A stretch of DNA of 64,000 bases from Tsuneonella sp. CC-YZS046 (GTDB taxonomy: Bacteria; Pseudomonadota; Alphaproteobacteria; Sphingomonadales; Sphingomonadaceae): the NCBI RefSeq assembly GCF_035581365.1, contig NZ_CP141590.1, forward strand, positions 2,414,001 to 2,478,000, in the 5' to 3' direction. The notes beneath the pieces are model-generated. The model was not told the DNA's origin. It saw only the letters and a list, made by a program, of their open reading frames with translations, and did not search any database. Below, in pieces: positions 23,118 to 63,885 of the stretch; within the stretch, counting starts at the first letter, position 1; every line of letters begins with the position of its first letter. The position numbers and the translations under genes are program-made.

Positions 23118-23699
23118 CCTTGCGCGGCCGTCATACTGTTTCTCGTCATTTCCGCGAAAGCGGGAATCCAGGGCAAGGTTGTAGCTAGATCCCCGTTTGC
23201 ACGGGGATGACGAAAGAGGAGATGGATGCTCCCCGGCCGGTTGACGCAGAACGCCGGAAATGTGCATTTGCATTTCGGCCCGGCGCGGGTCGTATTCCGC
23301 GATAAATGGCCGCGGCCGGGCGTGGAACCAGCGCTCATCCAGTGTGACCTTTCGCTGGAGCGCTTCTCCACCACCACGAATCCTCATCTGTCCGTTCTTC
23401 GTCTGAAGCCGGGATAAGGGCAAAGGCGACGGGCGAAGCTGCGGGATGCTCTGTGCGTCATCCATCAGGATAAGCCAGATTTCAGCCGTGTAGGAAAGGT
23501 GGAACGCCCACTGCGTCATGCCAGCCCTTCGGCTGGCTGGCCAAGCCAGCCGCTCAGGATAAACTGCCCTTTGGGGCAAGCTGGCATCTCAGGCAGTTGG
23601 GTGGTGCGTTGCCCACAGCGATTCCAGCTTTCGCTGGAATGACGAAGGGCTGGGAGGGGCGGCGGGGCAGGCCGGTTGACGCAGGTAGTGGAGTGAAGC
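23118..23699. repeat. Second composite repeat region downstream of rplL
   Basis: No credible gene in about 580 bp. It contains REP-pair copy 3 (23144-23212), the conserved block with the AAATGTGCATTTG hairpin (about 23226-23285), a divergent middle carrying GTGTGACCTTTCGC, and the GATAAGCCAGATTTCA block (about 23450-23505), in the same order as at 1575-2022. After that come a GC-rich stem around 23520-23550 and a half-REP at 23625-23643. A further GCCGGTTGACGCAG fragment occurs near 23672. Confidence 0.8.
23144..23212 (+). repeat. REP-like palindromic pair, copy 3
   Basis: A 69-bp element with CGTCAT and ATGACG termini. The left hairpin is TTCCGCGAAAGCGGGAA (one base changed in one arm) and the right is CCCCGTTTGCACGGGG. 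Confidence 0.85.
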
Positions 23700-28120: not shown

Positions 28121-29143
28121 ATGAAATTCCGGGCAGCAAACCGCTTCAGGCGCTTTTTCGCAACGCTTGCGCTGGGTGCAACCGTGCTTGCATCGGCGCA
28201 GGCCGCGGCACGCGACGATTTCGAAGCCGCATTCGACAATACTCTCGGCACCGAGCTGCGCGCGCCGCGCAGTTACAGCTCGATCTATTCGGATGCCGCC
28301 GAAAGGCGGCTCGCGCTCACCGCCAATGGGGACAGGGGCCGGATCGGCGTGGCCGCGCTCGACCTTTCGACCGGGCGCGAATTCTCCATTCTCGGCGACC
28401 AGCGCTTTCCCATGGCCAGCACCAGCAAGATCGCCATCGCGGCGACCTTCCTGGAAGGGGTGGACAAGGGAAAATGGTCGCTGAGCGACCGCTTCCCGCT
28501 GATGGTCCCGGTCGCATCCAGGCCTTTCAGCAGCAAGATCGCGCCGGTCAATGCAGGCACCATGCTGCCTGCGCATGAATTGATCGAGCTGATGATCACG
28601 CGCAGCAGCAACCCGGCCACGGACGCCCTGCTCGCCGCCGTCGGCGGGCCGGATGCCGTGAACCGCTGGGTCCGCAATGCCGGGATCGACAATTTCCAGT
28701 TGAGCCGCGACATCGCGACGCTGGTGCGCGACGATGGGGAGTTCGACCCCGCGACCTATATCGACCAGCGCGACAGCGCCACGCCGCAGGCGATGATCAC
28801 ACTGCTGGCCGGGATACATCAGGGGCGCTGGCTTTCCGCGGAAAGCCGCCGGGTCATCATCGGGGCGATGGAGCGCTGCCGCACCGGCAAGCGCCGCATT
28901 CCCGCCCTGCTCCCGGCGGGCGCCTATGTCGCCCACAAGACCGGGTCGCTGAACAATACGTCGAGCGATATCGGCATCATCCAGATGCCGGACGGACGGC
29001 CCGTGGCGATTGCCATCTATGTGACCGGCCAGGGCTCGCGCCCGGCGCGGGAAGAGCGCATCGCCCAGATCGCCCGCGCGCTTTACGATAGCTATGCGGC
29101 GGAAGGCGGATCGACCAAGAACTGGGTCAACGCGCGCTACTGA
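28121..29143 (+). CDS. Class A beta-lactamase-fold serine hydrolase, exported
   Basis: A 340-residue protein with an N-terminal signal peptide (hydrophobic residues about 12-28, cleavage probably after A-Q-A-A-A). The penicillin-binding motifs are S-T-S-K at 100-103 (nucleophile Ser100, Lys103), S-S-N at 162-164 where class A enzymes usually have S-D-N, and K-T-G at 273-275. The omega-loop region before R-D-S-A-T-P (217-222) does not show a normal E-x-x-L-N; Glu207 and Asp204/205 are the only acids nearby. It could be a weak beta-lactamase, a peptidoglycan-processing hydrolase, or another acyl-enzyme hydrolase. No ampR-type regulator is adjacent. I would not infer a resistance phenotype. Confidence 0.82.
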   Translation: MKFRAANRFRRFFATLALGATVLASAQAAARDDFEAAFDNTLGTELRAPRSYSSIYSDAAERRLALTANGDRGRIGVAALDLSTGREFSILGDQRFPMASTSKIAIAATFLEGVDKGKWSLSDRFPLMVPVASRPFSSKIAPVNAGTMLPAHELIELMITRSSNPATDALLAAVGGPDAVNRWVRNAGIDNFQLSRDIATLVRDDGEFDPATYIDQRDSATPQAMITLLAGIHQGRWLSAESRRVIIGAMERCRTGKRRIPALLPAGAYVAHKTGSLNNTSSDIGIIQMPDGRPVAIAIYVTGQGSRPAREERIAQIARALYDSYAAEGGSTKNWVNARY

Positions 29144-29155
29144 CGCCCGGCACTG

Positions 29156-29242
29156 GTTCCGGTCGAACCGGAACGAGGCTGGAATACCTGTTTTCCGCGA
29201 TTTCCGGGTCAGCAAGTGCTTCCGCCTGCCTCGAAATCACTC
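29156..29242 (-). repeat. Nested-hairpin repeat, copy D
   Basis: On the minus strand this reads GTGATTTC, an inner GCAGGCG/CACTTGC imperfect stem, GAAATCGC, then GGAAAACAGGTATTCC and a GTTCCGGTTCGACCGGAAC palindrome. It is one of four intergenic copies (others at 49553, 53003 and 63827). Located between the beta-lactamase-fold gene and the Ala-rich lipoprotein gene. Confidence 0.75.
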
Positions 29243-29485
29243 GCGAGGCGAGCCATGCTCCAGCGCGGCTGGCTGAACCGGCGCCAATGAAAAGCTGATG
29301 GATTGCCTGCAAGCGCCGGGATGCGGCACCTTGGCTTGCCGTGCCCCGTTCAGCATTCGTCCTGATCCGCGAACGGCCGTTCGGCCCGCCGGGGCGGATA
29401 CTCGCCCGGATTCAGGAAGGCATGATCGGACAGCCGGGCAAGGCGCGGAACTGCTCCCGCCTTTGCAATCCGCCCGATCCTCAAA
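29243..29485. other. Intergenic stretch without recognisable gene
   Basis: Between repeat copy D and the terminator of the convergent lipoprotein gene I see no ORF with a family signature, no tRNA and no clear promoter. Confidence 0.5.
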
Positions 29486-36841: not shown

Positions 36842-37002
36842 TCGCCAGCTCCCTCGATTTCGGGCGTCGTTCCGTCCGCCAAGCTAGGAACGCTTCGGGC
36901 GTATTGCAAACGCGCGGTGATGGAAAAAGCGTTAAAGCAGAACGCGGCAGGGTCACGCGGAACGGATTCACGCGCTATCCAGGGTCAGGACCTAGCGCGG
37001 AT

Positions 37003-37033
37003 AAAAAAAGGCCCGGTCGTTGCCGACCGGGCC
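37003..37033 (-). terminator. Strong rho-independent terminator downstream of the AT-rich island
   Basis: On the minus strand GGCCCGGTCG pairs perfectly with CGACCGGGCC around a four-base loop, followed by seven T residues. It ends a minus-strand transcript that could be a long metK 3' end or an independent small RNA. Confidence 0.9.
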
Positions 37034-37130
37034 GTGGAAGTTTTGGGAGAGGATGCCTGAAAGGCAGGTTCTTTATGATTCATCCGACCTGATTCCGCAA
37101 GTGCGAAAAACACATGGTTAGTTGCAAATT
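37003..37130 (-). ncRNA. Candidate small RNA in an AT-rich island
   Basis: Between metK and the CDC48-type gene, 37081-37200 is only about 36% G+C by hand count, against roughly 65% around it. On the minus strand the island carries a TTCATTG/CAATGAA inverted repeat and a perfect TTGCAAA-T-TTTGCAA palindrome (37122-37136), followed by about 100 nt with a small CTGCCTTTCAGGCA-type hairpin and then the strong terminator. That layout (operator-like palindrome, short transcript, terminator) fits an sRNA gene. No convincing ORF fits. The alternative is a long metK 3' untranslated region. Confidence 0.35.
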
Positions 37131-43102: not shown

Positions 43103-43173
43103 CGTCATTCCCGCGAAAGCGGGAACCCAGCAACCAGGAACGCAACTGGCTCCCCGCTTCCGCGGGGATGACG
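43103..43173 (+). repeat. REP-like palindromic pair, copy 4 (prfA-hisS gap)
   Basis: A 71-bp element with CGTCAT/ATGACG termini. The left hairpin is TTCCCGCGAAAGCGGGAA and the right is CCCCGCTTCCGCGGGG. The right stem differs from copies 1-3 by a paired change (GC for the GT/AC pairing), which preserves folding. This copy lacks the extra conserved blocks. Confidence 0.85.
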
Positions 43174-43206
43174 ATGGGGTAGAGGAGTCTGGGCTAAACA
43201 CGATGG

Positions 43207-48037: not shown

Positions 48038-49552
48038 ATGAATTTCGGGCCGCGCCTCGACCTGCGGCAAAGCCAGTCGCTGGTGATGACGCCACAGCTC
48101 CAGCAGGCGATCAAGCTGCTGGCGCTCTCCAACCTGGAGATCGAGGCCTTCGTAAGCGAAGCGCTGGAAGCCAATCCGCTGCTCGAACTGGGCGAGGCGG
48201 AGGGAGCGGTCCCCGAACTTCCGGACAGCGACCTGTCGGCCGACCGGGAAGCGGCGGATGCGCCTGTCGATGCGGTGGAAACGGGGGTCGACCGCTTGCT
48301 GGAAACCGGGCCGAACGACGCGGAGCCGCCGCTGGATGTCGAATTTTCCGCGCTGCATGGCGATGCCGATACGGGACTTGTCGCGGATCTTCGCCTCGGC
48401 GCGGAGCAGCGTTCCGAAGCGAATGGAGAAGGTTTCTCGATAGAGGAGCGCGGGCAGGGGCCGCTCACCCTGACCGAGCACCTGCTCAACCAGATCGGCG
48501 CGGTCGCGGCCGACGAAGACATTGCCTTCATTGCCCGCTACCTGATCGGCCTGCTCGACGACACCGGCTATCTCACCGCCGACCTGCGCCATGTGGCGGG
48601 GGAACTCGATGCGCCGCTGGCCATGGTCGAGGCGGCGCTGGCTGCGGTCCAGTCCCTCGACCCGACCGGGGTGGGCGCCCGCAATCTCGCGGAATGCCTG
48701 GCCCTGCAAGCCAGGGAAGCGGATCGCTACGACCCCTGCATGGCGAGCCTGATCGACAATCTCGACCTGATCGCCAAGGGCAATCTCAAGCAGCTGCGCC
48801 GGATCTGCAATGTCGATGACGAGGATTTCGCCGACATGCTGGCGGAGCTGCGCGGCTACGATCCCAAGCCCGGCCTGCGCTTCGGCAAGGAGACGGCGGG
48901 GGCGCCGGTCGTGCCCGATATACTGGTGCAGGCCGCCGGCGGGGGCTGGGACATCGCGATCAACCCCGCCACCCTGCCCCGGCTGTGCGTCAATCGCAGC
49001 TATTATCTGGAGCTGCGCGGATCGTGCGAGGACAAGTCCTCGCGCGCATGGCTGAACGAGAAGCTGGCCGACGCCAACTGGCTGCTGCGGGCGCTCGACC
49101 AGCGCCAGAAGACGATCCTGAAGGTGGCGCGGGAAATCGTGAAGCAGCAGGAAGGCTTTTTCCGCCACGGCGTCTCCGCGCTCAAGCCGCTCACGCTGCG
49201 CGAAGTGGCCGAAGCCATCGAAATGCATGAATCGACCGTGAGCCGGGTGACCGCCAACAAATATCTGAACTGCGCGCGCGGCACGTTCGAGCTGAAATAT
49301 TTCTTCACCTCCGGCGTCGCTTCCTCGGATGGCGGCGGCGCGGTGTCCGCCGAAGCGGTGAAGGCCCAGATCCGGGCGCTGGTGGACGCGGAGGACCCAT
49401 CCGCGATCCTGTCCGACGACACGCTGGTCGATCTGCTGAAGGAAAAGGGCTTCGACCTCGCCCGGCGGACCGTCGCCAAATATCGCGAGGCGATCGGCAT
49501 CGGCAGCTCGGTGCAGCGGCGGCGGCAGAAGGCGCTCGCGGCGATCCGCTAA
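48038..49552 (+). CDS. rpoN: RNA polymerase sigma-54 factor
   Basis: A 504-residue sigma-54. The Gln-rich region I reads L-R-Q-S-Q-S-L-V-M-T-P-Q-L-Q-Q-A-I-K-L-L, followed by an acidic region II (about 60-140), the core-binding domain, the helix-turn-helix E-S-T-V-S-R-V-T-A-N-K-Y and the RpoN box A-R-R-T-V-A-K-Y-R. I use the ATG giving M-N-F-G-P-R-L-D-L-R-Q-S; another in-frame ATG lies 10 codons upstream. It directs transcription of enhancer-dependent genes. The usual downstream hpf and ptsN are absent; instead a nested-hairpin repeat and ctrA follow. Confidence 0.95.
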   Translation: MNFGPRLDLRQSQSLVMTPQLQQAIKLLALSNLEIEAFVSEALEANPLLELGEAEGAVPELPDSDLSADREAADAPVDAVETGVDRLLETGPNDAEPPLDVEFSALHGDADTGLVADLRLGAEQRSEANGEGFSIEERGQGPLTLTEHLLNQIGAVAADEDIAFIARYLIGLLDDTGYLTADLRHVAGELDAPLAMVEAALAAVQSLDPTGVGARNLAECLALQAREADRYDPCMASLIDNLDLIAKGNLKQLRRICNVDDEDFADMLAELRGYDPKPGLRFGKETAGAPVVPDILVQAAGGGWDIAINPATLPRLCVNRSYYLELRGSCEDKSSRAWLNEKLADANWLLRALDQRQKTILKVAREIVKQQEGFFRHGVSALKPLTLREVAEAIEMHESTVSRVTANKYLNCARGTFELKYFFTSGVASSDGGGAVSAEAVKAQIRALVDAEDPSAILSDDTLVDLLKEKGFDLARRTVAKYREAIGIGSSVQRRRQKALAAIR

Positions 49553-49608
49553 AGTGATTTCGAAGCAAGTGAAATCACTTGCTGACTCGGAAATCACGGA
49601 AACCAGAA
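49553..49608 (+). repeat. Nested-hairpin repeat, copy A
   Basis: Outer stem GTGATTTC/GAAATCAC and inner stem GCAAGTG/CACTTGC are both perfect, ending in GGAAACCAG. One of four copies; it follows the rpoN stop directly. Confidence 0.8.
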
Positions 49609-49639
49609 GCATGATGCGCCAGCGCTGGCCACCTGCCGC

Positions 49640-52203: not shown

Positions 52204-52974
52204 ATGCCCTTGCATTTCGAAGCCTTCGAACTGAGCGCCCTCCTTCCTTTCATTGCCATAGGCTTCGCCGCGCAATTGGTCGACGGCGCGCTGGGCATGG
52301 CCTTCGGCGTGATTTCCAGCACCATGATGGTGGGGGTGATGGGCCTGCCGCCGGCGGTGGCCTCGCAGCGCGTGCATATGGTGGAATGCTTCACCACCGC
52401 GACATCGGGTATCAGCCACCTGCTGCATGGCAATATCGACAAGCGGCTGTTCTTCCGCCTGCTCATTCCCGGGGTGATCGGCGGCCTGCTGGGCGCCTAT
52501 GTGCTCAGCTCGCTCGACGCCGCCGTGGTGAAGCCCTTCGTGCTGGCCTATCTCTGCGCGATCGGCCTCTACATCCTCTGGCGCGGGCTGTTCTATCCGC
52601 CCAAGATCAAGGAAGCCAAGCTGATCGCCCCGCTGGGCCTTTTCGGCGGCTTCCTGGATGCGGCGGGCGGCGGCGGCTGGGGGCCGGTGGTCACGTCCAA
52701 CCTGCTGATCCAGGGCGCCGACCCGCGCAAGGTCGTGGGCACGGTCAATTCCGTGGAATTCTTCCTGACGGTGACCATCTCGGCCACCTTCATCTATCAT
52801 CTGGGCATAGCCGACCTCGCCGGCGCGACGCTGGGCCTGCTGATCGGCGGCATATTGGCGGCCCCGCTGGGCGCCTGGGCCGCGAAGCACCTGCCCGCCA
52901 AGCAGATGCTGATCCTGGTGGGCATCGTGCTGACGGTGACGAGCGCCTATGGCGTATCGAGAGCGATCAACTGA
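52204..52974 (+). CDS. TSUP family (TauE/SafE) permease
   Basis: A 256-residue inner-membrane protein with about 8 hydrophobic helices in two halves. The N-terminal G-F-A-A-Q-L-V-D-G-A-L-G-M-A-F-G-V and the repeated G-G-F-L-D-A-A-G-G-G-G-W-G-P-V-V-T-S-N-L are the internal repeats of TSUP transporters. Family members export sulfite, sulfonates or related anions. The substrate is unknown. An AAAGGA site lies close to the ATG. Monocistronic. Confidence 0.92.
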   Translation: MPLHFEAFELSALLPFIAIGFAAQLVDGALGMAFGVISSTMMVGVMGLPPAVASQRVHMVECFTTATSGISHLLHGNIDKRLFFRLLIPGVIGGLLGAYVLSSLDAAVVKPFVLAYLCAIGLYILWRGLFYPPKIKEAKLIAPLGLFGGFLDAAGGGGWGPVVTSNLLIQGADPRKVVGTVNSVEFFLTVTISATFIYHLGIADLAGATLGLLIGGILAAPLGAWAAKHLPAKQMLILVGIVLTVTSAYGVSRAIN

Positions 52975-53002
52975 TCGCGCCGTCCCGCCGAGTTGCGGCT
53001 GG

Positions 53003-53091
53003 AGCCATTGCGAAGCAAGCGGGATCGCTTGCCGAAGCGGAAATCACGGAAAACAGGTAAGTCCCAGGCCCGTTCCGGTCGAACCGGAACG
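53003..53091 (+). repeat. Nested-hairpin repeat, copy B
   Basis: Inner stem GCAAGCG/CGCTTGC is perfect and differs from copy A by a compensatory pair. The outer arm GAAATCAC is present on one side only. It continues with GGAAAACAGGTAAG and a CGTTCCGGTCGAACCGGAACG palindrome core. Lies between the convergent TSUP permease and maeB. Confidence 0.78.
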
Positions 53092-53110
53092 TGCCGGAAC
53101 GTGAACACGG

Positions 53111-55372
53111 TCAGCCCACCACGCCCGCCGCCGCCAGCACCGCCAATTGCAGCACATCGGGCGCGATGGAGGTCATAGGCGCGATCTGCACCGGCTTTTC
53201 CATGCCGATCAGCATCGGGCCGATGGTGGCGTTGCCGCCCAGCTCGCGCAGCAGCTTGGCTGAAACATTGGCCGATTGCAGGCCCGGCATGATGAGCACA
53301 TTGGCCGGCTGCGACAGGCGGCTGAACGGATAATTCGCCATTACCTTGGGATTGAGCGCGGCATCCGGGGCCATCTCGCCTTCATATTCGAAGCCGGGAT
53401 TTTCCGCGTCGAGGATATGGACCGCATCGCGGATGCTTTCCAGCCACTTGCCCGACGGATTGCCGAAGGTCGAGAAGCTGAGGAAGGCCACGCGCGGCTC
53501 ATGCCCCAGCCGCCGCGCCACCGCCGCCGTCTCCTTGGCGATATGGGCCAGTTCCTCGGCGGTCGGCCGTTCGTTGATCGTGGTGTCGGCCAGGAACACC
53601 GTGTAATCCTTGCCGATCATCAGATGGATGCCGAAGGGCAGGTGACCGGGCTTCGGATCGAGCACCAGTTGCACTTCCTTCATCGTCTGGGCGAAGGGGC
53701 GGGTCAGGCCGGAGATCATCGCATCGCCATGGCCCAGCGCCAGCAGGAGCGAGGCGAAGACATTGCGGTCCTGATTGACCATGCGGCGCACGTCGCGCTC
53801 CATGAAACCGCGCCGCTGCAGCCGCTGATACAGATATTGCACCATTTCCGGCACATGGATGGAATCCGCCGAATTCTGGATCTCATAGCTGTCGGGATCG
53901 TCGACCCCCAGTTCCACCAGCTTGTCCAGGACGGCCTGGGTGCGGCCGACCAGGATCGGGTTGCCATATCCGAAATCGCGATACTGGATCGCGGCGCGCA
54001 GGACGACCTCGTCCTCCCCCTCGGCGAAGACCACGCGCTTGGGGTTCTTCTTCAGATCCTCGAACACCTGGGTCAGCACGCTGGTGGTCGGGTTGAGCCG
54101 GGCCTTGAGCGCGGTGCGGTAAGCGTCGAAATCCTCGATCGGCTTCTGGGCGACGCCGGAATCCATCGCGGCCTTGGCCACTGCGGACGAAATCCGCTCG
54201 ATCAGGCGCGGATCGAACGGCGCGGGAATGATGTATTCCGTGCCGAAATGATGGTTGCGGCCATAGGCGGCGGCCACTTCCTCAGGCACGCGCTCGCGCG
54301 CCAGGGCGGCGATCGCTTCGGCCGCCGCAATCTTCATTTCCTCGTTGATCGCGGTCGCCTGCACGTCCAGCGCGCCGCGAAAGATGAAGGGGAAGCCGAG
54401 CACATTGTTGACCTGGTTCGGATAATCCGACCGGCCCGTGGCGACGATGGCGTCGGGCCGCACCTTCTTCGCTTCGGGCGGGGTGATTTCCGGATCGGGA
54501 TTGGCCATGGCGAAGATGATCGGCTTGGGCGCCATCTTCTTCACCATCTCCGCGGTCAGCGCGCCCTTGATCGACAGGCCGAGGAACACGTCCGCCCCGG
54601 CGATGGCGTCGCTCAAAGTCCGGGCGTCGGTGGCGATCGCATGGGCAGACTTGAACTGGTCCACATTGTCGCGGCCGATATAGATCACACCCTTGCTGTC
54701 GCACATCGTCACGTTTTCGTGGCGCACGCCCATCGACTTGATCAGCGAGGTGCAGGCGATGGCGGACGCGCCGGCCCCGTTCACCACCACCTTGACATCG
54801 CCCAGCTTGCGGCCGGTGAGGTGGCAGGCATTGATCAGGCCGGCGGCGGCGATAATCGCGGTGCCGTGCTGGTCGTCATGCATCACCGGGATCTTCATCC
54901 GCTCGCGCAGGGCCTGCTCGATGATGAAGCATTCCGGGGCCTTGATGTCTTCCAGATTGATGCCGCCGAAGCTCGGCTCCATCAGCGCCACGGCATTGAC
55001 GAAGGCGTCCGGGTCCTCCGTATCCAGCTCGATGTCGATCGAATCCACATCGGCGAAGCGCTTGAACAGCACCGCCTTGCCTTCCATCACCGGCTTGGAG
55101 GCGAGCGCGCCGAGATTGCCCATGCCGAGGATCGCGGTGCCGTTGGAGATCACGGCGACCAGATTGGCCCGGGCGGTGTAGATCGCCGCCTTGGACGGAT
55201 CGGCGGCAATCGCCTCCACCGGCGCGGCGACGCCGGGGGAATAGGCCAGGCTGAGATCGCGCTGCGTCGCCATCGGCTTGGACGCGATGATCTCGATCTT
55301 CCCGGGGCGGATCGTCTCGTGGTAAAACAGCGCCTCACGTTCGGTGAAGCGAAGCTTGTTGTCTTCAGCCAA
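53111..55372 (-). CDS. maeB: NADP-dependent malic enzyme (MaeB type)
   Basis: A 753-residue fusion. The N-terminal malic enzyme domain (about 1-425) has S-L-A-Y-S-P-G-V-A-A-P, the M-G-N-L-G-A-L-A-S-K-P-V-M-E-G-K motif, H-D-D-Q-H-G-T-A and the N-G-A-G-A-S-A-I-A nucleotide-binding region. The C-terminal phosphotransacetylase-like domain (about 430-753) is regulatory in this class. It decarboxylates malate to pyruvate. I read the start as TTG (M-A-E-D-N-K-L-R-F-T), with AAGGAGAA 7-8 bases upstream; no ATG is available nearby. Divergent from mutS with 122 bp between. Confidence 0.95.
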   Translation of the reverse strand: MAEDNKLRFTEREALFYHETIRPGKIEIIASKPMATQRDLSLAYSPGVAAPVEAIAADPSKAAIYTARANLVAVISNGTAILGMGNLGALASKPVMEGKAVLFKRFADVDSIDIELDTEDPDAFVNAVALMEPSFGGINLEDIKAPECFIIEQALRERMKIPVMHDDQHGTAIIAAAGLINACHLTGRKLGDVKVVVNGAGASAIACTSLIKSMGVRHENVTMCDSKGVIYIGRDNVDQFKSAHAIATDARTLSDAIAGADVFLGLSIKGALTAEMVKKMAPKPIIFAMANPDPEITPPEAKKVRPDAIVATGRSDYPNQVNNVLGFPFIFRGALDVQATAINEEMKIAAAEAIAALARERVPEEVAAAYGRNHHFGTEYIIPAPFDPRLIERISSAVAKAAMDSGVAQKPIEDFDAYRTALKARLNPTTSVLTQVFEDLKKNPKRVVFAEGEDEVVLRAAIQYRDFGYGNPILVGRTQAVLDKLVELGVDDPDSYEIQNSADSIHVPEMVQYLYQRLQRRGFMERDVRRMVNQDRNVFASLLLALGHGDAMISGLTRPFAQTMKEVQLVLDPKPGHLPFGIHLMIGKDYTVFLADTTINERPTAEELAHIAKETAAVARRLGHEPRVAFLSFSTFGNPSGKWLESIRDAVHILDAENPGFEYEGEMAPDAALNPKVMANYPFSRLSQPANVLIMPGLQSANVSAKLLRELGGNATIGPMLIGMEKPVQIAPMTSIAPDVLQLAVLAAAGVVG

Positions 55373-62307: not shown

Positions 62308-62352
62308 TGCTATTTGGCCCACTGTTATTTGGCCCACTGTTATTTGGGAAGC
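62308..62352. repeat. Three tandem 15-bp units at the 3' end of the solute-binding gene
   Basis: Three adjacent copies of TGTTATTTGGCCCAC (first with one change, third diverging at its end) lie at 62308-62322, 62323-62337 and 62338-62352. The third unit includes the stop codon of the solute-binding lipoprotein gene, so slippage duplicated the end of the gene. Confidence 0.85.
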
Positions 62353-63812
62353 ACCGCCAGCGGCGGCAAGGGATGAAAGCCCCAGCGGTTGGCGGCAAAG
62401 CCGGTGATGTCGCTGCGGACCAGAGACCAGCGCAACGGCACGCCGATCGGAATATAGACATTCGCAGCGGTCAGCTCCGCTTCCGCTTCCGCCAGCAAGG
62501 CGGCGGCCGAGGCCGCATCCGGCGCCGCTCTCGCCTCCTCCACCCTTGCATCCGCTTCCGGCGAGCAGGCCCCGCGGCGCAGGGAGCAATTGAACTGGTT
62601 GAGGAACCATTCCGCGGCGGCATAGCGCGCGACGCGATCCACCCAGATCAAATCCGCCTGCCGTTCCGTCGCCGCGCGATCGAGAACGAAGCCCGCCTTC
62701 GCGAGATCCCCGCGCAGGACCGTCAATACGATGTCGGACCCCGGCCCCTCCGGCAGGAACACCGACAGGCGCGCAGGCGCGGCGCCATTCGCGGCGCTCC
62801 AGGCCGCGACTCGGCGAGCCGCTTCCCTCTGCCGGTCCTCCACCGGCAGGCTCTCCCAGCGCTCCCCGATCGTGCCGAGATCGTCATCCAGCCCCGGGGA
62901 AACGAACCGCGTCGTCGCATCCCAGCCGCCCACGTTGAACGGCGCGATAACGGCGGGCCGATCGATCGCCATCGCCACGGCTTCCCGCATCGAGGGTTCC
63001 GCCAGCACGCCCTTCGGGTTGAGCACCTGCAGGCCGAACAGCCCGATCACCCGGTCCAGCCGGACGGTTCCGCGCGAAAGCGGGCCGGTGTCCACCAGCG
63101 GCAAGGTTTCGATCTGCCCGCCCAGCACCAGATCGACCTTCCCTTCGTCGAACAGCAGGATCGCCTGCGATGCCGAAACCGCGCGCAGCCTCAGTTCCCG
63201 GCTGCGTTTCGGCCAGGACGGATCTTCCGCTTCGCCGCGTGCCTGCGGAGGCAGGGGATGAAGGACAAGCTCATCGTCGTCCTCCAGCCGCATCAGGCCC
63301 TGGCCGGCTCCCTTGTGGAACAGGCCCAGTTCCGGCTGCGCCAGCAGCTGCAGGAAATTGGGCATCGGGCTGGTGAGGCGGATCTCCACCACCCGCCCGG
63401 CCATCGCGCGGATTTCCGATATGCGCGACAGGTCCAGCGCCAGAGATGTGCCTTTCAGGCTGCGCAAGGTGCGCCTGAAGGCATCCTCCACGCTTTCGCT
63501 GCTCAGTTCCGCGCCGTCGGGCCAGGTGCCGTTGCGCAAGCGGAAGATGTAGCTGCGCCCATCATCGGTCACGATCCAGCGTTCCGCCAGCGCCGGGGTC
63601 ACATCGCCATTCGCATCCAGCCTGACCAGCCCGTCCACCGTCGCGGAACGCAGCAGCTGGGCATCGGGGGAAAGCCGTGTTCCCTTCTGCAGAAGGCTGT
63701 CCCGATCGCCGATTACCGCGAGGTCGATCACCCCTTCCCGGTCCGCGCCGCAACCCGCCAGCAGCAAGGCGGCGAGCACAGCCGGGACAAGGAAGCGCAA
63801 GCGGAAAATCAT
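62340..63812 (-). CDS. Family 5 extracellular solute-binding lipoprotein
   Basis: A 490-residue periplasmic binding protein of the peptide/nickel type (SBP_bac_5). The signal peptide ends in a lipobox L-L-A-G-C (Cys21). The domain opens with D-L-A-V-I-G-D-R-D-S-L, then L-V-R-L-D-A-N-G-D-V-T-P-A-L-A-E-R-W, Y-I-F-R-L-R-N-G-T-W-P-D-G-A-E-L and the V-E-D-A-F-R-R-T-L segment typical of DppA/OppA-like proteins. It is somewhat shorter than most relatives. No permease or ATPase genes are adjacent, which is unusual. The ligand cannot be assigned. Its stop codon lies in a 15-bp tandem repeat. Confidence 0.9.
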   Translation of the reverse strand: MIFRLRFLVPAVLAALLLAGCGADREGVIDLAVIGDRDSLLQKGTRLSPDAQLLRSATVDGLVRLDANGDVTPALAERWIVTDDGRSYIFRLRNGTWPDGAELSSESVEDAFRRTLRSLKGTSLALDLSRISEIRAMAGRVVEIRLTSPMPNFLQLLAQPELGLFHKGAGQGLMRLEDDDELVLHPLPPQARGEAEDPSWPKRSRELRLRAVSASQAILLFDEGKVDLVLGGQIETLPLVDTGPLSRGTVRLDRVIGLFGLQVLNPKGVLAEPSMREAVAMAIDRPAVIAPFNVGGWDATTRFVSPGLDDDLGTIGERWESLPVEDRQREAARRVAAWSAANGAAPARLSVFLPEGPGSDIVLTVLRGDLAKAGFVLDRAATERQADLIWVDRVARYAAAEWFLNQFNCSLRRGACSPEADARVEEARAAPDAASAAALLAEAEAELTAANVYIPIGVPLRWSLVRSDITGFAANRWGFHPLPPLAVLPK

Positions 63813-63826
63813 GTGCGCCTGCTTAG

Positions 63827-63885
63827 AGCGATTTCGAGCCGGATGGAAATCCGGCGCCTTGGAAATCGCCGAAAAACAGGAATCC
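63827..63885 (+). repeat. Nested-hairpin repeat, copy C
   Basis: Outer stem GCGATTTC/GAAATCGC and inner stem GCCGGAT/ATCCGGC are both perfect and both differ from copy A by compensatory changes, ending GAAAAACAGGAATCC. Lies just upstream of the solute-binding gene start. Confidence 0.78.

Follow-up and report, generated by a model that had tools for sequence, protein, structure and literature searches.

The window analysed here, a stretch of 64,000 nucleotides of contig NZ_CP141590.1 from Tsuneonella sp. CC-YZS046, contains four copies (A to D) of a short repeat built around nested hairpins, which border on genes for, among others, the sigma factor RpoN, a solute-binding protein and a malic enzyme/phosphotransacetylase (Table 1). 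All four copies of the original prediction were confirmed by inspection of the sequence and with a covariance model, and the stem arms named for them are correct. The motif GGAAATCRCNGAAAACAGG (with at most three mismatches) occurs four times in the window against 0.08 times expected in shuffled sequences, and compared to shuffles copy A (z -4.9) folds far more stably and copy C (z -3.2) to a lesser degree, with a weak signal for copy B (z -2.1). Several details of the architecture have to be revised. Of the nested stems assigned to the copies, the outer one is disrupted in B (GCCATTGC versus GAAATCAC), and the pairing of D is imperfect. The tail GGAAAACAGG, thought to be common to all four, is exact in B and D, whereas A reads GGAAACCAGA and C reads CGAAAAACAGG; moreover, it is not the end of the repeat but the start of a spacer that joins two hairpin modules. 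Likewise, the GTTCCGG...CCGGAAC palindrome noted in B and D is indeed there, but it is what is left of a second hairpin module of regular form, which is complete in other copies. The copies lie in intergenic DNA, although A not wholly so, since its first three bases, TAA, form the stop codon of rpoN.

Table 1. Copies of the repeat and neighboring genes in the window, ordered by position.
Feature	Position in window	Strand	Remarks
Serine beta-lactamase-family gene	28184-29143		Copy D lies downstream of the gene
Copy D, module 2	29145-29181	-	GTTCCGG-TTCGA-CCGGAAC hairpin; same architecture in other copies
Copy D, module 1	29182-29244	-	73.2 bits
rpoN (sigma-54)	48038-49552	+	Ends with the stop codon that opens copy A
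Copy A, module 1 (nested hairpin)	49550-49612	+	79.5 bits; module 2 lost; starts with the rpoN stop TAA
TauE/SafE-family gene	52204-52974	+	Upstream of copy B
Copy B, module 1 (outer stem broken)	53000-53062	+	70.1 bits
Copy B, degenerate module 2	53065-53100	+	GTTCCGG-TCGAA-CCGGAAC hairpin; same architecture in other copies
Malic enzyme/phosphotransacetylase gene	53111-55372	-	Convergent to copy B
Solute-binding protein gene (antisense)	62340-63812		Start codon 11 nt from copy C, which lies upstream
Copy C, module 1	63824-63884	+	58 bits

The window holds other repeated and structured sequences as well. A second repeat family of ca. 80 bp with inverted ends (CGTCATTCCCGCG...CGGGGATGACG) is found at positions 1575-1655, 1886-1966, 23144-23224, and 43103-43183, and there is a larger duplicated stretch at 1575-2022 and 23144-23499, with flanking repeat pieces that are 91-96% identical. 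On the minus strand at 36995-37072 a match (57 bits) to the suhB/mmgR small RNA family RF00519 was obtained.

A covariance model built from 24 copies of the genome of strain CC-YZS046 retrieved 36 full copies from its 3.35 Mb, rather than only the four of the window. Among 150 sampled genomes of the family the distribution is patchy; 34 of them carry the repeat, in numbers ranging from one to at least 35 per genome, and members of the same genus differ widely (e.g., 5 versus at least 34, and 4 versus at least 36). Named hosts include Croceibacterium xixiisoli, Sphingomonas laterariae, Novosphingobium, and Sphingobium. In a class-wide sample of 240 alphaproteobacteria only seven other genomes matched, mostly weakly. 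The repeat is also present in 21 plasmid records, all of Sphingobium, Novosphingobium, Sphingomonas, or Rhizorhabdus. None of 50,697 phage records contains it, and a phage origin was rejected; the absence of any match in Rfam 15 at the gathering score led us to reject a known RNA family. A search of the open-licence literature found no description of the repeat in sphingomonads, and only two matches were obtained with a pattern (TAGAGCAT..AAAAGTG..CGGTTTT) for a sister repeat that would extend across the alphaproteobacteria.

The complete element measures ca. 101 bp plus TA and consists of TA-GAGC followed by hairpin 1, an A-rich spacer, and hairpin 2 followed by GCTC-TA. In other genomes its full-length form reads TA-GAGCGATTTC-nnn-GCAGGTG-GAAT-CACCTGC-TGACTCG-GAAATCGC-GGCAAACAAAAGAAA-TAGAGCGGCGATCCGATGCAATCGGATCGCCGCTC-TA, and the full copies there possess terminal inverted repeats, 5'-GAGC and GCTC-3' (5' GAGCGATTTC..., 3' ...GATCGAAAACCGCTC). 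In strain CC-YZS046 these terminal repeats have decayed in many copies, the 3' TA has mostly decayed as well (to TG or CA), and the second hairpin has drifted to GACTCGTTCCGGTTCAACCGGAACCGGAACGAGTC, the core of which is the palindrome seen in copies B and D. The outer arm of the nested hairpin is itself the terminal repeat (GAGCNNTTTC), the 3' spacer CTGACTCGG is conserved, and the element has no coding capacity.

Module 1 is rich in GANTC (14-18 per kb against 1.7 per kb in the window), as would be expected of a repeat of the CIR type, centered on CcrM methylation sites. However, about a quarter of the copies lack GANTC altogether (11 of the 37 copies of strain CC-YZS046 and 23 of the 103 others), the sites being located in the hairpin loop and spacer, where they are freely lost. 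Since GANTC is not constant, we rejected this reading, which seems very unlikely. CIR repeats of Caulobacter and Brucella were reportedly described by Chen and Shapiro in 2003. They resemble the present element in being alphaproteobacterial and intergenic, in their TA ends and in their frequent GANTC, but they differ in the constancy of that site; the review PMC2229807, in its entry for CIR, lists no terminal inverted repeat and gives the duplication as unknown.

The mobility of the element is evident from Sphingobium strains from one collection site, which contain near-identical megaplasmids. At the DinB locus strain TomTYG64 has an empty site, TTTGAGGAC-TA-GCTGGCAC (GGAC-TA-GCTGG; also written GAGGAC-TA-GCTGGCAC), and strain TomMM7A a filled one, TTTGAGGAC-TA-[101 bp]-TA-GCTGGCAC (GGAC-TA-[101 bp]-TA-GCTGG). 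TomTYG46 and TomTYG72 form an equivalent empty/filled pair on a second haplotype, at GAGAAA-TA. The comparison of empty and filled sites reveals a clean 2-bp TA target-site duplication, in Sphingobium rather than in the genome of the window. Empty and filled alleles of the DinB locus (L333, L320, L334, L312) are each found with both of the flanking haplotypes, which points to precise loss, to recombination, or to more than one insertion into the same TA. At the folD2 locus the gene ends with TAG in empty strains; filled strains carry the element and that TAG is still the stop, also in the deposited annotation, in which folD2 terminates within the first three bases of the element.

The IS630-family insertion sequences of the same bacteria have the same ends as the repeat, i.e., TA-GAGCGGTTTTCGA…GATCGAAAACCGCTC-TA. 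With some variation, the ends of these insertion sequences in this family read TA-GAGCG..TTTTC / GAAAA..CGCTC-TA and TA-GAGCGNTTTTC... / ...GAAAANCGCTC-TA; a complete element in TomTYG72 and TomTYG64 has TA-GAGCGGTTTTCGACC and CTGATCGAAAACCGCTC-TA. The outer arm of the repeat varies in parallel with the IS630 ends, and the last 17 nt, GATCGAAAACCGCTCTA, are identical between one such insertion sequence (L367) and one copy of the repeat (L104). Tc1/mariner-like IS630 elements use TA, and IS630 itself has a preference for CTAG. The insertion sequences of the Sphingomonadaceae (e.g., the annotated TRm10-1a of Sphingobium) thus share with the repeat the TA-GAGC...GCTC-TA ends and up to 17 identical terminal bases, but they are ca. 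1,050 bp long, encode a DDE transposase (DDE_3 match, E=2.8e-32), and lack the nested hairpins. A related IS630 transposase was detected in 16 of the 34 repeat-bearing genomes and in 23 of the 116 others (p=0.003), a co-occurrence that is possibly confounded because IS630 may simply track genomes rich in mobile elements. No IS630 transposase was detected in the genome of strain CC-YZS046 or in two high-copy genomes (G009 and G152); mobilization there would, therefore, be a past event or depend on a lost or plasmid-borne copy. In another genome (G008; L265, 1372-2425) an IS630 element abuts one copy of the repeat, its insertion point being precisely the terminal TA of that copy.

Short, non-coding and multicopy, with terminal inverted repeats, a target-site duplication in empty/filled comparisons and ends that match those of IS630-family insertion sequences, the repeat has the features of a miniature transposable element (MITE). 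From the TA duplication and the ends held in common it follows that it is, with high probability, a non-autonomous IS630-type MITE, probably moved in trans and accumulating at stop codons. The original prediction implied an independent structured element of a kind not described before; what we find instead is a new, apparently undescribed family of a kind that is already known elsewhere, as exemplified by RUP in the review PMC2229807. Most likely, the element would be cut and joined in trans by an IS630-family transposase, encoded in an insertion sequence that has these ends and resides on a plasmid or at another genomic site. Insertion would occur at TA dinucleotides, preferably in the context pyrimidine-TA-purine, with duplication of the TA. 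In strain CC-YZS046 this transposase would have been lost after the copies had spread. A quite different mode of movement is that of REP/REPIN elements, mobilized by a RAYT (Y1 HUH) transposase that recognizes hairpins as single-stranded DNA. Hairpin pairing kept by compensatory change (see below), a location mostly at the 3' ends of genes and the existence of one tandem array are all shared with such elements, but a 2-bp TA duplication and IS630-like ends are unexpected of them and no Y1 transposase was found in the high-copy genomes G000, G008, G009, G127, and G152. The TA duplication in particular largely refutes membership of the REP/RAYT group, which we consider extremely improbable.

Some copies have been rearranged. 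At L072 (1579-1816; G000:C1:2486278-2486515) four head-to-tail module-1 units of 58 bp form a tandem array, apparently through slippage amplification of one half of the MITE. At L025 (G000:C1:1998550) the 5' half of a copy has been replaced and its 3' flank matches that of L015, another copy, which points to a duplication and a later rearrangement. Downstream of the copy at a lipase locus (L285) we encountered a further repeat with nested hairpins, GAGCATCGTGCGCAAAAGTGGGAACCGGTTTTGCGCTTAAAACGATGC, one end of which is GAGC. It has one similar copy in the genome of strain CC-YZS046 (L370) and is possibly a sister MITE family.

The flanks of the copies reveal the target of the IS630-type MITE. 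A pyrimidine precedes the 5' TA in 85 of 97 copies and a purine follows the 3' TA in 34 of 39 (background 42%), and, hence, the target is YTAR. Gene calls by a codon-usage script placed the stop of the upstream gene on the first three bases of 42 of the 140 copies (34 TAG, 4 TAA, and 4 TGA), copy A behind rpoN among them; the TA(G) of stop codons is one of the targets. In stop-codon copies that have kept their 3' end, the base after the 3' TA is A or G in 16 of 16 cases, compared to 18 of 23 copies elsewhere (p=0.066), which is consistent with, although not decisive for, this base being the displaced third base of TAA or TAG. At three orthologous sites the gene products keep their full C terminus. 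The orthologs without the element (three, in G085) end at the same residue with TGA rather than TAA or TAG as stop, so that one substitution is needed for a fit with a TAA/TAG target. In strain CC-YZS046 there is a raw excess of copies at stop codons (11 of 36, against 11% of non-coding TA; p=0.0015). However, a fifth (21%) of the non-coding YTAR sites in the window are stop codons and, once this preference is allowed for, the excess is no longer significant (p=0.16); special targeting of stop codons was, therefore, rejected. YTAR sites in GC-rich, compact genomes are often stop codons, which explains why many copies are located there, and the bias toward gene ends needs no special targeting. 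Insertions that kill genes would be lost, and insertion into TAG or TAA, both of which contain TA, would rebuild the stop (TA+G), so that copies would accumulate at stop codons, in the gaps of convergent gene pairs and directly ahead of ribosome-binding sites. Copies follow the stops of sense genes in 90 of ca. 137 cases and those of antisense genes in ca. 95 of 133, and only nine lie between divergent genes.

The claim that the fold and not the sequence alone is conserved was borne out when the alignments were checked for stem compensation, both within the genome of strain CC-YZS046 and among copies from other genomes. In the former, two-sided changes occur in 6 of 15 pairs (13 cells against 4.1 expected in shuffles), in an alignment (A2) that was not fitted to the model. 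Copies from other genomes (101 distinct ones) show pairing in 98.4% of the paired cells and two-sided changes in 11 pairs, with 129 two-sided cells against 27 in shuffles and at most 18 with the partner slid, counts that lean toward the model structure since this alignment was fitted to it. The rate of divergence in the arms is about half that of unpaired positions within the element, and changes in the arms are mostly two-sided (131 versus 41). Two-sided changes are also seen among copies of single genomes, although in G009 and in strain CC-YZS046 one-sided changes are as common or commoner. Conservation of the nested pairing, beyond that of the sequence, is thus supported. G.U outnumber A.C mismatches by 38 to 22, which leans weakly toward pairing on the sense strand.

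These patterns may indicate that the nested hairpin of the MITE also acts as an RNA element in 3' untranslated regions (for stability, as an RNase III site or as a terminator), its pairing being selected on transcripts. The position of the copies behind sense and antisense stops and rarely between divergent genes, the slow and mostly two-sided change of the arms and the surplus of G.U would all fit, and in 7 of the 103 copies from other genomes the bottom strand of module 2 with the U-rich spacer fits an intrinsic terminator. Such terminator-like signals are, however, a minority, with none in strain CC-YZS046, and with 7 of 140 copies fitting a general terminator was rejected. Furthermore, the G.U bias is weak and the copies are related, and the 3'-end position is explained by YTAR targeting and the loss of harmful insertions. 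We regard an additional role in RNA as possible but doubtful. Covariation could also arise mechanically, if hairpin-templated repair (quasi-palindrome correction) transfers changes between the arms and the match of the outer arms is due to both being transposase-binding ends. That the outer arm is the terminal repeat and varies in parallel with the IS630 ends, and that two-sided changes are also seen within single genomes, is in line with such a process, but it leaves the lower overall rate in the arms and the conserved 3' spacer unexplained, and we put it forward only tentatively. More speculative, and rather unlikely, is that the fold of the MITE is under selection because a transposition factor or an RNA-processing enzyme recognizes the nested hairpin and the fixed 3' spacer, in the form of single-stranded DNA or of RNA; a module of transposon origin would then have turned into a structured 3' untranslated element found throughout the family and supplying stop codons as well.

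In kind, this MITE comes closest to RUP (repeat unit of pneumococcus), for which mobilization by IS630-Spn1 has been proposed (Oggioni and Claverys 1999, reviewed in PMC2229807). As portrayed in that review, RUP is also ca. 100 bp long, non-coding and intergenic, with TA at its ends and target and terminal repeats that match an IS630-family insertion sequence, although its sequence and host are unrelated. In contrast to RUP as described in PMC2229807, the present element is built of two hairpin modules, for which compensatory change has been demonstrated, and shows a bias toward YTAR sites and stop codons. According to the same review, RUP was the only bacterial repeat of this sort for which ends matching those of an insertion sequence had come to light. 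Correia/NEMIS and ERIC are, according to its Table 1 (PMC2229807), likewise short MITEs with a TA duplication and transcripts that fold into stem-loops, but their terminal repeats differ from those reported here. Our results name an apparently undescribed MITE family in much-studied degraders (Sphingobium, Novosphingobium, Sphingomonas, and Croceibacterium) and tie it to an identifiable IS630 partner. They offer a simple reason for the presence of repeats exactly on stop codons in GC-rich genomes, and the compensatory change in the hairpins provides a usable case for the question of whether MITE folds are selected or mechanically copied.
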